DNA from: Myxococcales bacterium | GTDB taxonomy: Bacteria; Myxococcota_A; Polyangia; Polyangiales; Houyiibacteriaceae | Direction of reading: 5' to 3' | Assembly: GCA_029862185.1 (NCBI GenBank) | Contig: JAOTXX010000028.1 | Location: forward strand, 1-44,853 | Length of the DNA: 44,853 nt | Shown here: one piece after another, positions 16,526 to 42,932 of the stretch | Numbering within the stretch: the stretch's first letter is position 1 | Layout of the letters: each line of letters opens with the position of its first letter | The notes under the pieces: model-generated | What the model was told of the DNA's origin: nothing | The model's input: only the letters and a program-made list of their open reading frames with translations | Databases searched by the model: none | Position numbers and translations under genes: made by a program

Positions 16526-16599
16526 GGGCCCATAGCTCAATTGGTTAGAGCCCCCGGCTCATAACCGGGTTGTTCCTGGTTCGAGTCCAGGTGGGCCTA
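16526..16599 (+). tRNA. tRNA with anticodon CAU, probably tRNA-Ile2 (lysidine type)
   Basis: A 74-nt cloverleaf: acceptor GGGCCCA/TGGGCCT (1-72 is a G-U pair), D-stem GCTC/GAGC, anticodon stem CCCGG/CCGGG with loop CTCATAA (anticodon CAT at 16560-16562), 5-nt variable loop, T-stem CCTGG/CCAGG with loop TTCGAGT, discriminator A. CCA is not encoded. It lacks the three G-C pairs before the anticodon loop that mark initiator tRNA. The C4-G69 and C5-G68 pairs are the determinants known for TilS recognition of E. coli tRNA-Ile2, so I favour tRNA-Ile(CAU) over elongator tRNA-Met. tilS is in this window at 25446. Confidence 0.9.
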
Positions 16600-17437: not shown

Positions 17438-17455
17438 GTGGGGTTGCTGAGCGTG

Positions 17456-17582
17456 GGGCCTGGTTTGGTTTAATTACACCGCCCGCCCACCCCCACCCGT
17501 AATCCTCCCTGGCGCGGCATTCGCTTCGCTTTGCCTTGCCGGCGCGTTGCGCCGGGCTTCGCCCTTCGGGCTCGCGCTGCCG
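17456..17582. repeat. Dispersed intergenic repeat, copy 1 (127 bp)
   Basis: This stretch is nearly identical to 41589-41716, with about half a dozen differences, in the same orientation. It begins GGGCCTGGTTTGGTTT and ends CGGGCTCGCGCTGCCG. It holds two hairpins: CCGGCGC/GCGCCGG around GTT, and CCC-TTCG-GG, a stable UUCG tetraloop type. It starts 19 bases after the zinc-ribbon gene. Open frames across it have no protein-like composition. No flanking target duplication or transposase is seen, so it is a non-autonomous or REP-like element. Confidence 0.75.
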
Positions 17583-39524: not shown

Positions 39525-40958
39525 ATGAAGCAGTACTTCGTCCAGACCTTCGGCTGCCAGATGAACGTCCACGACTCCCGTCGCATCGAGGAGGTCCTTC
39601 GGGCGAGCGGCTACCGTGAGGCAAGCGAACCCGCTTTGGCCGATCTCCTGCTCGTCAACACCTGCAGCGTCCGCGAGAAGGCGGAGCACAAGCTGATGAG
39701 CCTTCTCGGCACGTTTCGACCCTTCAAGGAGGCGCAGCGAGGCACGATTCTGGCCGTAACCGGCTGCGTCGCCCAGCAAGAAGGCGAGCGATTGCTTCGA
39801 AAGGCGCCCTTCGTAGACATCGTCCTCGGACCGGACAACATCCCCGAGCTTCCCGCGCTGATCCGCGAAGTCGAGCACGGGGCCCCGCCGATCACCAGAA
39901 CGGTGTTCGACATGGACGACCCCCAATTCCTCCGAGCCAAGCCTCACGCAGATCGCCGGGAAGTCACCGCGTACGTGACCGTCATGAAGGGCTGCGACGA
40001 GCGCTGCACGTTTTGTATCGTTCCCTATACACGTGGGTCCGAGCGATATCGGCCCGCAGACCAGATCGTCGGCGAGATTCACGACCTCGTCCGAGGGGGC
40101 GTGCGGGAGATCACCCTCCTCGGGCAGACCGTCAACTCCTGGCACGAACCCGGTGCGGATGCGGAGGCTAGCAAGACCGAGTCGAGGCTGGCCGCGTCCA
40201 CATCTCGATTTGCGGGGCTGCTCCGGCGGATCGCGGAAGAGGTTCCTGACCTCTGGCGGCTTCGCTACACCTCTCCTCACCCACGGCACATCACCGCCGA
40301 GCTGGTGGCGGCGCACGCTGACCTCGGGGTGCTTCCCTCGCACGTGCACCTGCCGGTGCAGTCGGGTTCGGATCGCCTACTTCGGCGGATGGCGCGGCGC
40401 TACACGGCCGAGGAATACATCGCGCGAACCGACGCATTGAAGCAAGCGAGGCCGGGTCTCACGCTTTCTGCCGATTTCATCGTCGGCTTCCCGGGGGAAA
40501 CCGAGGAAGATTTCGAACAAACGCTCGAGCTGGTGCGGCGCGTCGGCTTCGTTGCCGCGTTTGCGTTCAAATACTCGCCGCGGCCGTACACGCCGGCGCT
40601 CAAGCTCGGCGATGAGGTCTCCGAAGAGGTGAAAGACGATCGCCTGGCGCGCTTGTTTGCCATCGTCGAAACCCAACAGCAGGCGCACCTCCGATCGTTG
40701 GTCGGCCAAGATGTGCAGGTTCTGGTAGAAGGCCCTTCACCAGGGGACAACGGCCGCTTCGCTGGGCGCAGCGAGCGAAACGAGATCGTTCATTTGATCG
40801 CGCCCGACGGTCACGACCCGACCGGCGAGTTGGTCACCGTGACGATCGACGAGCCGTTTCGCCACAGCCTGTCCGGCTACTTGACCGGGGCAAAGGGCCT
40901 CGCAGACCGCGGCCCACGCACGCGCCTTTCAGTGCTTGGCGCTGGAGGCGTAGCCTGA
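39525..40958 (+). CDS. miaB: tRNA-2-methylthio-N6-dimethylallyladenosine synthase MiaB
   Basis: Radical SAM methylthiotransferase that adds a methylthio group at C2 of N6-isopentenyl-A37 in tRNAs reading UNN codons. It has the UPF0004 domain with cluster cysteines C11, C47 and C81, the radical-SAM motif C157-x3-C161-x2-C164 (CDERCTFC), the TSPHP and VQSGSD blocks, and a TRAM domain (about 400-465). The N-terminus QTFGCQMNVHDS and the GCDERCTFC form favour MiaB over MtaB and RimO. The insert around 215-232 (EASKTESRLAAS) is mildly unusual. It is divergent from tamA and its stop is followed immediately by the vanZ-like frame. Confidence 0.95.
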   Translation: MKQYFVQTFGCQMNVHDSRRIEEVLRASGYREASEPALADLLLVNTCSVREKAEHKLMSLLGTFRPFKEAQRGTILAVTGCVAQQEGERLLRKAPFVDIVLGPDNIPELPALIREVEHGAPPITRTVFDMDDPQFLRAKPHADRREVTAYVTVMKGCDERCTFCIVPYTRGSERYRPADQIVGEIHDLVRGGVREITLLGQTVNSWHEPGADAEASKTESRLAASTSRFAGLLRRIAEEVPDLWRLRYTSPHPRHITAELVAAHADLGVLPSHVHLPVQSGSDRLLRRMARRYTAEEYIARTDALKQARPGLTLSADFIVGFPGETEEDFEQTLELVRRVGFVAAFAFKYSPRPYTPALKLGDEVSEEVKDDRLARLFAIVETQQQAHLRSLVGQDVQVLVEGPSPGDNGRFAGRSERNEIVHLIAPDGHDPTGELVTVTIDEPFRHSLSGYLTGAKGLADRGPRTRLSVLGAGGVA

Positions 40959-41011
40959 GTAGCAATTCGCTCCGGCAGAGCCTTCGCGCATGGCGCTTCG
41001 CGCTTCTGTAC

Positions 41012-41344
41012 ATGGCTCTGATTTTCGTGATTTCGTCATTCGAGGTCCAAGTTCCGGGGATTCGGCACATCCCGCTGCGCGACAAGGGCATCCACTTCGT
41101 CGAGTACGCGATCCTGGGCTGGCTTTGCGCCACGGCGTCCAGGCAAAGCTGGCCTTCCGCTTCGGCGTGGCGAACGGCGGCGTTTGCGGTCTTTGTTTCC
41201 CTGCTCTGGGGACTGTCCGACGAGATTCACCAGGCGCTCGTGCCGGGTCGTTCCTCCGAGCTCAGCGATGTCGTTGCCGATCTCTTGGGCAGCGTCGCCG
41301 GCGCCGCAGGCTCGTATCTTTTTTCGAACAGAACTGTAAGCTAA
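41012..41344 (+). CDS. VanZ-family membrane protein
   Basis: Small four-helix membrane protein. DKGIHFVEYAILGWL and DEIHQALVPGRSSELSDVVADLLGSVAG are the VanZ-like signature blocks. The family's biochemical role is unresolved; VanZ itself gives teicoplanin resistance. The ATG at 41012 cuts into the first helix: residues encoded just upstream in the same frame (SLRAWRFALLY) look like genuine family sequence, but there is no ATG, GTG or TTG in that frame back to the miaB stop. A CTG at 40955 overlapping the miaB TGA would restore a normal N-terminus. The gene is otherwise downstream of miaB in the same direction. Confidence 0.8.
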   Translation: MALIFVISSFEVQVPGIRHIPLRDKGIHFVEYAILGWLCATASRQSWPSASAWRTAAFAVFVSLLWGLSDEIHQALVPGRSSELSDVVADLLGSVAGAAGSYLFSNRTVS

Positions 41345-41380
41345 TGCACCGCAAACCTGGACCTAAGGCAAGCGCTACCA

Positions 41381-41409
41381 TTGACGCGTTCAGTCCTTGT
41401 ATTTAGATT
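41381..41409 (+). promoter_or_regulatory. Sigma-70 promoter of the small RNA at 41416
   Basis: TTGACG (41381-41386) and TAGATT (41404-41409) are separated by exactly 17 bases; the hexamers match consensus at five and four positions. It lies 37 bases beyond the vanZ stop codon, with no protein start of its own downstream for 470 bases. Transcription would start near 41416. Confidence 0.65.
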
Positions 41410-41415
41410 GTAGGT

Positions 41416-41545
41416 GCTGCAGGCAAAGCAGTTCTCGAAACGAGAAAACCAACATATTTTGCCGGTGGATCCCCCCCATAAGTCCACCGGTTGTTCCCCG
41501 CCCGGTCGTGTCTCCCCCCTCCAAACGACCGGGCGACCCTTTTTT
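41416..41545 (+). ncRNA. Candidate small regulatory RNA with two C-tract hairpin loops (about 130 nt)
   Basis: From the predicted start the transcript could fold as a weak CTGC/GCAG stem; TTCTCG-AAA-CGAGAA (41432-41446, 6 bp); an AU-rich single strand (AACATATTTT); CCGGTGGA/TCCACCGG (41462-41469 and 41483-41490) with a loop of seven C followed by AUAA; and CGCCCGGTCGT/ACGACCGGGCG (41499-41509 and 41525-41535) with loop GTCTCCCCCCTCCAA; then T6. The promoter, compact stems, terminator and absence of an open frame fit a stand-alone small RNA. C-rich or UCCC loops are a known device by which small RNAs bind G-rich ribosome sites (RsaE-type RNAs of Staphylococcus). I cannot match it to a named RNA. 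Confidence 0.6.
41499..41545 (+). terminator. Intrinsic terminator of the small RNA
   Basis: An 11-bp perfect stem (41499-41509 with 41525-41535), 15-base loop, then ACCC and six T (41540-41545). The four bases between stem and T-run are slightly more than usual. Confidence 0.6.
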
Positions 41546-41588
41546 AAACGGTAGTGGCCGCGCGGGTGGGGCGTGGTTGATGGGCTGC

Positions 41589-41716
41589 GGGCCTGGTTTG
41601 GTTTAGTTACACCGCCCGCCCACCCCCACCCGTAGTCCTCCCTGGCGCGGTATTCGCTGCGCTTTGCCTTGCCGGCGCGTTCGCGCCGGGCGTCGCCCTT
41701 CGGGCTCGCGCTGCCG
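41589..41716. repeat. Dispersed intergenic repeat, copy 2 (128 bp)
   Basis: Nearly identical to 17456-17582 in the same orientation. One inserted base changes the first hairpin from CCGGCGC-GTT-GCGCCGG to CCGGCGCG-TT-CGCGCCGG, which keeps or lengthens the pairing. It lies 43 bases beyond the small RNA's terminator. Between this repeat and the next gene (41717-41882) I see only a weak redoxin-like open frame. Confidence 0.75.
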
Positions 41717-41882
41717 TAACCTTTGTCGAACTGGGATGTCCTCGGGCACTTGGGTCCGTTGAAGCGTTGCTTTCCGATTCGGTTCTACGTCGATCAGGAT
41801 GGCCAGCTAGCGCGGCAGCTCGGCACGAAAAAGCAATGGGAAGCCCTCGACTGGTCTGGTGTACACACCTACAGTTCGCGCC

Positions 41883-42932
41883 ATGACGTTTCGTGGAAAT
41901 CGCTCATGCGCGATAGGCTCGGTGCTCGCCGCTTTTTTCGTGCTGAGCTGCGCCAGCTCCCAGGCACCTGGCGCGACGGAGCCACAGGCCGGCGCCGAAC
42001 CCCAAGCCTTGGTGGACCCGCTCCCCTCCTGGAACGACAACAGCACCAAAGCGCGGATCATCGACTTCGTCCGCGCCGTCACCGACCCTGAGGACCCGGC
42101 TTTCGTCGAGCCCGCGGATCGGGTGGCAACCTTCGACAACGATGGGACGCTCTGGGTTGAGCAACCGCTCTACACCGAGCTGGCCTTCGCACTCCATCGG
42201 GTCAAGGATCTCGCGAAAGTTCACCCCGAATGGAAAGACCAGCAGCCATTCAAAGCCGTCATCGAGGAGGACCGGGACGCCCTGGTGTCCGCGGGCACTC
42301 GGGGCCTGATCGAAATCGTGATGGCTTCGCACACCGGCATGAGCACGACGCTTTTCGATACGATCGTCGCGGAATGGCTGCGGGATTCCCGTCATCCCAA
42401 GCTCCAAAAGCCGTACACCGAGCTCCACTACCAACCGCAGCTGGAGCTCTTGCGCTACCTCGAGGCCAATGGCTTCAAGACGTTCATCGTTTCGGGTGGA
42501 AGCGTGGAGTTCATCCGCATGTTTTCCGAAGAGGTTTACGGGATTCCGCGAGAACGAGTGATCGGAACATCGATCGCAACGCGATACGCGGTTCAGGCGG
42601 GCAAGCCCACGCTCTTGCGCCTACCCGAAATCGACCACGTCGATGACAAGGCCGGCAAGCCGGTGGGCATTCACCAGCACATCGGTCGGCGCCCCATCCT
42701 CGCCTTTGGGAATTCCGACGGGGACTTCCAGATGCTGGAGTGGACCACCGTGGGCAGCGCCGGAGCGCGCCTGGGATTGCTTCTCCACCATGATGACGCC
42801 GAACGGGAATACGCCTATGATCGCAACAGCAAAATAGGCAAGCTCGACCAGGCGCTCGATGCAGCAGGCCAGTCGGGTTGGCTCATCGTCTCGATGAAGA
42901 ATGACTGGAATGCGGTCTTCACGACGAAGTAG
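41883..42932 (+). CDS. Secreted HAD-superfamily phosphatase-like lipoprotein
   Basis: A 349-residue protein with a lipoprotein signal (IGSVLAAFFVLSC-ASS, lipid cysteine C23) and a haloacid dehalogenase core. Motif I FDNDGT (D85, D87), motif II VSGGS (S204), the motif III lysine near KAGKPVG (about K259) and motif IV GNSDGD (276-281) are all present, so it should be an active phosphohydrolase of the class with a helical cap between motifs I and II. The substrate is not evident; export to the periplasm suggests a phosphate ester met outside the cytoplasm. ATG 41883 is preferred because the lipobox is then well placed; a GTG at 41859 adds eight residues. The next lipoprotein gene follows after 10 bases. 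Confidence 0.82.
   Translation: MTFRGNRSCAIGSVLAAFFVLSCASSQAPGATEPQAGAEPQALVDPLPSWNDNSTKARIIDFVRAVTDPEDPAFVEPADRVATFDNDGTLWVEQPLYTELAFALHRVKDLAKVHPEWKDQQPFKAVIEEDRDALVSAGTRGLIEIVMASHTGMSTTLFDTIVAEWLRDSRHPKLQKPYTELHYQPQLELLRYLEANGFKTFIVSGGSVEFIRMFSEEVYGIPRERVIGTSIATRYAVQAGKPTLLRLPEIDHVDDKAGKPVGIHQHIGRRPILAFGNSDGDFQMLEWTTVGSAGARLGLLLHHDDAEREYAYDRNSKIGKLDQALDAAGQSGWLIVSMKNDWNAVFTTK

Follow-up and report, generated by a model that had tools for sequence, protein, structure and literature searches.

The intergenic interval at 41381-41545 of the window (the whole 44,853-nucleotide stretch that was analysed, contig C104 of a 4.29-Mb assembly) very probably encodes a genuine small regulatory RNA that belongs to one Myxococcota genus and had not been described before. 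As judged from sequence comparison, this RNA is probably a stand-alone, genus-restricted product of ~130 nt that acts in trans, with the C-rich loop of its third stem-loop (SL3) repressing G-rich ribosome-binding sites without Hfq, and with outer-membrane lipoprotein genes as the best candidate targets. The initial annotation had proposed both an undescribed small RNA (sRNA) gene that has a promoter and a terminator of its own and an action on G-rich leaders. The predicted gene is well supported by comparative evidence, and the predicted action by comparative evidence together with the candidate targets.

Promoter and predicted transcript

The constant upstream neighbour of the sRNA unit is a vanZ-like gene (41012-41344, forward strand; PF04892), and the unit lies between the vanZ stop and the next gene. 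Upstream of vanZ lies a miaB-like gene (39525-40958, forward strand; UPF0004, radical SAM, TRAM). Public named contigs with the same locus carry the labels Deltaproteobacteria, Myxococcales or Polyangiaceae.

A sigma-70-type promoter, TTGACG-17-TAGATT, is located at 41381-41409 on the forward strand (TTGACG at 41381-41386, TAGATT at 41404-41409). It is the only sigma-70-like site within 40900-42000, where 0.1 would be expected from shuffles. The −35 hexamer TTGACG and the 17-nt spacing are identical in 16 of 16 relatives, all of which also have a TAnnnT −10 box, while the spacer is merely 55% identical. Placed from the −10 box, the start of the predicted sRNA would be at 41414 and its end at 41545 on the forward strand, giving ~130 nt. 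The fold of the interval 41381-41545 has a z of −4.2 and that of the predicted transcript a z of −5.3, with no shuffle equally stable; across four species z ranges from −3.5 to −7.4.

The promoter, the hairpins with C7 and C6 loops, the 11-bp stem and the T6 that had been annotated in this interval were all confirmed from sequence and folds, and two of the annotated elements needed revision. The 5′ domain (41416-41445, forward strand) forms two small hairpins in the window, GCUGC..GCAGU and UCUCG-AAA-CGAGA. The second of these, described initially as a 6-bp hairpin TTCTCG-AAA-CGAGAA, is present in the window but limited to the closest relatives, and most of the genus has a single 5′ hairpin, GAGGAC..GUUCUC, in place of the window's pair. 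In the window the 5′ hairpin is weak. SL2 (41461-41491, forward strand) has a 10-bp stem and an 11-nt loop, CCCCCCCAUAA, with seven consecutive C; its stem is retained in all 16 relatives, with two-sided changes at two pairs. SL3 (41499-41535, forward strand) is terminator-like, with an 11-bp stem and a 15-nt loop, GUCUCCCCCCUCCAA, in which six C are followed by UCC and which contains the proposed main seed CCCCUCCAA. ACCC and a U6 tract follow at 41536-41545 on the forward strand (T6 at 41540-41545) and form the probable 3′ end; conservation reaches up to CUUUUUAA, where similarity ends. The annotated terminator is therefore not a textbook one: the 11-bp stem and T6 are both there, but the four bases ACCC intervene between them, and the scan for such sites left it unlisted. 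In some relatives the U-tract is only UUAUU.

As no terminator was seen between vanZ and the sRNA hairpins, SL3 may also end the miaB–vanZ transcript. The hairpins could then be the terminator region of that operon, released by processing as a 3′UTR-derived RNA, for which trans action may remain. That the RNA is always directly 3′ of vanZ in the genus, with no other terminator between the two, fits such an origin. We nevertheless find it unlikely, since the interval from vanZ to the RNA holds an invariant TTGACG-17-TAnnnT around a diverging spacer, and since neither conserved C-rich loops nor SL2 would be needed for a mere terminator.

C-rich loops and the probable seed

With the exception of one species (L017, GCCGCUCCUUAUAA), the SL2 loop carries a run of 6-9 C, whose 3′ flank varies. 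In SL3 there are 6-8 C in the relatives, and the word CCCCUCCAA occurs in 16 of 17 genomes; the stem of the exception, L012, is also damaged. Because one species has lost the SL2 run, whereas CCCCUCCAA persists in 16 of 17 genomes, the seed more likely lies in the terminator loop. The RNA had initially been thought to carry two copies of the same seed. What the two loops have in common is a C-run, not a seed: CCCCUCCAA is found in SL3 only, and two equal seeds are not supported given the loss in L017 and the variable 3′ flank of SL2. CCUCC is the core of the 16S anti-Shine-Dalgarno; CCCCUCCAA contains CCUCC, with flanks that differ from those of 16S.

Persistence of a C-run whose length varies by one or two bases among species is what a loose seed would show, and also what a sponge would show if its C-tracts bound a cytosine-preferring protein (or G-rich RNA) with no action on ribosome-binding sites. 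We regard a sponge as quite improbable, because the conserved word CCCCUCCAA reaches past the C-run and matches the leaders described below base for base.

Conservation and distribution

Using BLAST, we found the region downstream of miaB–vanZ in 17 of the 19 genus genomes; the assemblies of the other two (G001 and G002) are also without vanZ. A covariance search of Myxococcota, together with conserved loops or compensatory changes in relatives, had been named initially as checks of the proposal. The covariance model R1, built from 16 sequences, recovered a single copy from each of 16 genomes of the genus (114-149 bits, E down to 1e-30) and nothing comparable outside the genus over the 184 genomes searched in the order. 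The loops are conserved, and 5 of the 26 pairs have changed on both sides, with a covariation score above all 500 shuffles. Standard pairs fill 95.2% of cells in the three helices, compared to 28-51% with slid partners. By part, the SL3 stem has an identity of 0.94-0.97, SL2 one of 0.78-0.81 and the 5′ domain one of 0.60 (89.6% of cells paired), and identity falls to 0.40 over the 35 nt directly past the U-tract. SL3 hardly varies and so says little on covariation.

Elsewhere in the family, another gene (carbonic-anhydrase-like by eye) mostly comes directly after vanZ, and no such sRNA was seen in the vanZ-downstream sequence of these other genera. Single copy, syntenic in the genus and not found in other genera of the order, the sRNA appears to be a genus-restricted gene in a fixed place. 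Weak covariance matches of 29-32 bits outside the genus (G027, G121 and G138) were set aside; the one in G027 (L036), a terminator-like hairpin, has neither C-run loops nor vanZ and was judged to be chance. A stem-pattern scan of named genomes gave, among the matches listed, mostly unrelated hairpins, and only contigs of Myxococcota/Deltaproteobacteria type scored above 100 bits among them; the actinobacterial loci fetched by stem pattern included no credible match to the model among the matches listed.

Attenuators usually consist of a structured RNA and a terminator placed in front of a gene. What follows the sRNA varies among relatives, with a HAD-like gene in the window, a lepA-like gene on the opposite strand near L014 and tandem repeats elsewhere. 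The RNA persists while downstream sequence and genes differ, which makes a cis-acting leader or attenuator of the downstream gene very unlikely. Chance hairpins, or a piece of the dispersed DNA repeat that starts ~30 bases downstream (41575-41716), can practically be dismissed, being refuted by the conservation of a single-copy, syntenic RNA.

The repeat itself is ~145 bp long and has two window copies, the one beginning ~30 bases past the sRNA and another at 17442-17582, which are 92% identical. Further copies occur on other contigs of the window's genome and in relatives, and part of the repeat folds as a long hairpin. In many relatives (L005-L017), low-complexity tandem hexamers (CAGCGT, GGACCG, CCAGCG and similar) stand directly 3′ of the sRNA U-tract.

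Proposed mechanism and candidate targets

In the trans-acting mechanism that we propose, the ~130-nt sRNA would form three stem-loops, and the loop word CCCCUCCAA of the terminator hairpin would pair in the cell with G-rich ribosome-binding sites (UUGGAGGGG), the C-run of SL2 being a possible helper. Pairing would keep the ribosome from entering and lower translation of the target mRNAs, presumably under some physiological signal, and Hfq should not be needed. A search of the window's genome for Hfq (PF17209) found none, with the control genomes positive. The best candidate targets would be outer-membrane lipoprotein genes, including one for an OmpA-family lipoprotein.

Targets were sought with patterns and in sampled stretches, not by whole-genome prediction. 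The exact complement of the SL3 loop word, UUGGAGGGG, has an AUG at most 13 nt 3′ of it at 76 places in the 19 genus genomes, compared to 28 for the reversed pattern; ordinary Shine-Dalgarno signal accounts for some of this excess. In lipoprotein A (MRRIILMAMVLAVTVAGCNRFPD...), UUGGAGGGG is the ribosome-binding site, and the 20-nt leader ACCCUUUGGAGGGGA[C/G]UUAUG is essentially identical in 11 genomes, with proteins down to 47% identity. The same leader can also fold on itself as a small cis hairpin (CCCU..AGGG). For the OmpA-family lipoprotein (PF00691), GGAGGGG lies 5′ of the start in all 13 genus orthologs whose start could be read, while the surrounding bases vary. It was found in none of the readable outgroup leaders, most of which have AGGAGG-type sites; this contrast between genus and outgroup is one evolutionary event. 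As background, among 628 roughly called genes of two genomes, GG comes directly after GGAGG at only 3 of 89 sites.

Pairing with the SL3 loop has a predicted energy of about −18.6 kcal/mol, versus about −10.2 kcal/mol for the 16S tail. Ranked by duplex energy among sampled, crudely called genes, the candidates reach only the top 3% in G000, the window's genome, and ~10% in G016. The complementary sites are all Shine-Dalgarno sequences too, so selection for ribosome binding accounts for part of their conservation. In G014 the target leader is retained, yet the sRNA copy is without CCCCUCCAA and has a broken stem, possibly through an assembly error.

A guanylate-kinase-like gene has GGAGGGGGAGUUCCAUG as its ribosome-binding site in G000 (C153:29539-29555), G010 and G012, and may be a further target of the sRNA. 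GGAGGGGGGTTGGAATG, common to several genomes, was rejected as a target; it is antisense to the start of a small conserved coding sequence (MoaD/ThiS-like by eye). In G009, GGAGGGGGGAGAATG, part of which is perfectly complementary to the sRNA loop UCUCCCCCCUCC, is repeated on many contigs (e.g. C14:15725-15739; L216/L266). It looks like a piece of a dispersed repeat, and the G009 pattern matches number 62, compared to 10 for the control pattern.

Comparison with known C-rich-loop RNAs

Rfam gave no credible match for the sRNA at either gathering or permissive thresholds; the window's sole Rfam match at the former is a tRNA gene at 16526-16599. No published description of the sRNA was found in a literature search. 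The sRNA is a new family, of a C-rich-loop kind that is already known.

The 6C RNA (RF01066) is known as B11 in mycobacteria and scr3558 in Streptomyces (PMC12395582, PMC4046766). B11 has three stem-loops, with six C in loop 2 and nine in the terminator loop, and the B11/6C terminator loop is reported to pair with G-tracts near ribosome-binding sites, leading to repression (PMC12395582). Features in common are a length of ~100-130 nt, a C-rich loop 2 (C6 in B11), a C-rich terminator loop 3 and three stem-loops (B11); 6C hosts are without Hfq, and none was found in the window's genome. Two stem-loops with about six C each, the mark of 6C RNA, are found here as well, with C7 and C6 in the window and C6-9 and C6-8 in the relatives apart from one loop-1 exception. 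In contrast, stems, locus and phylum differ, the loops here are of 11 and 15 nt, with CCCCUCCAA in place of plain C-runs, and 6C occurs in Actinobacteria, whereas the sRNA members found here are from Myxococcota only. The RF01066 covariance model gave no match at the locus with E up to 10, and none at the locus in the 19 genus genomes, in a test that is not very sensitive, as the control C. glutamicum also scored below the RF01066 cut-off. On these comparisons the sRNA resembles 6C/B11 in build but is not detectably related, and we do not file it as a 6C RNA.

The sX13 RNA of Xanthomonas, with C-rich loops, represses mRNAs with G-rich motifs near the start independently of Hfq (PMC3771888). 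It likewise has three stems and C-rich loops, but these are 4C/5C loops in another phylum, and there is no Rfam match here and no sequence relation was seen. In rhizobia, the NfeR1/alpha-r14 RNAs silence mRNAs at the ribosome-binding site through unpaired anti-Shine-Dalgarno motifs (PMC10746234). An identical CCUCCUCCC occurs in all three alpha-r14 hairpins, whereas here one loop has CCCCUCCAA and the other a plain C-run; the loop reads CUCCCCCCUCCAA, and CCUCCUCCC is not present in every loop. Pxr of Myxococcus xanthus, reported to lie 3′ of nla19 with a sigma-54 promoter and to have originated in Cystobacterineae (PMC5568312), was the only studied trans-acting sRNA found in the myxobacterial literature searched. 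Both are myxobacterial three-stem-loop sRNAs of recent origin, but promoter type and locus set them apart, with a sigma-70-type promoter and the vanZ locus here.

A bolder reading, which we offer tentatively and hold to be rather doubtful, is that a myxobacterial genus without Hfq recently and independently evolved a 6C/B11-like RNA, its terminator loop imitating the 16S anti-Shine-Dalgarno tail and outcompeting it, and that the lipoprotein genes with matching UUGGAGGGG sites form a genus-wide envelope regulon. If the trans-acting sRNA is true, it would be the second such myxobacterial RNA, from another lineage, with predicted targets and no Hfq, and it would suggest separate origins of C-rich-loop riboregulation in actinobacteria, xanthomonads and myxobacteria. 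It also offers a test of a general rule, namely that G+C-rich bacteria without Hfq place the seed in the terminator loop.

A structured leader upstream of fusA

The G-tract of the fusA leader was rejected as a target of the sRNA; it is one arm of a cis stem and is conserved where the sRNA is absent. A conserved structured leader lies ahead of fusA (EF-G) in the rpsG–fusA intergenic region (~58560-58750 of G000:C58; L233 1385-1560; L267-L295) and is found family-wide, with no match in Rfam. Its outer stem, CCCUCUCYGA/UCGGAGGGGG, encloses a hairpin, and 5 of 15 pairs have changed on both sides. This is possibly an autoregulatory leader for S7 or EF-G.
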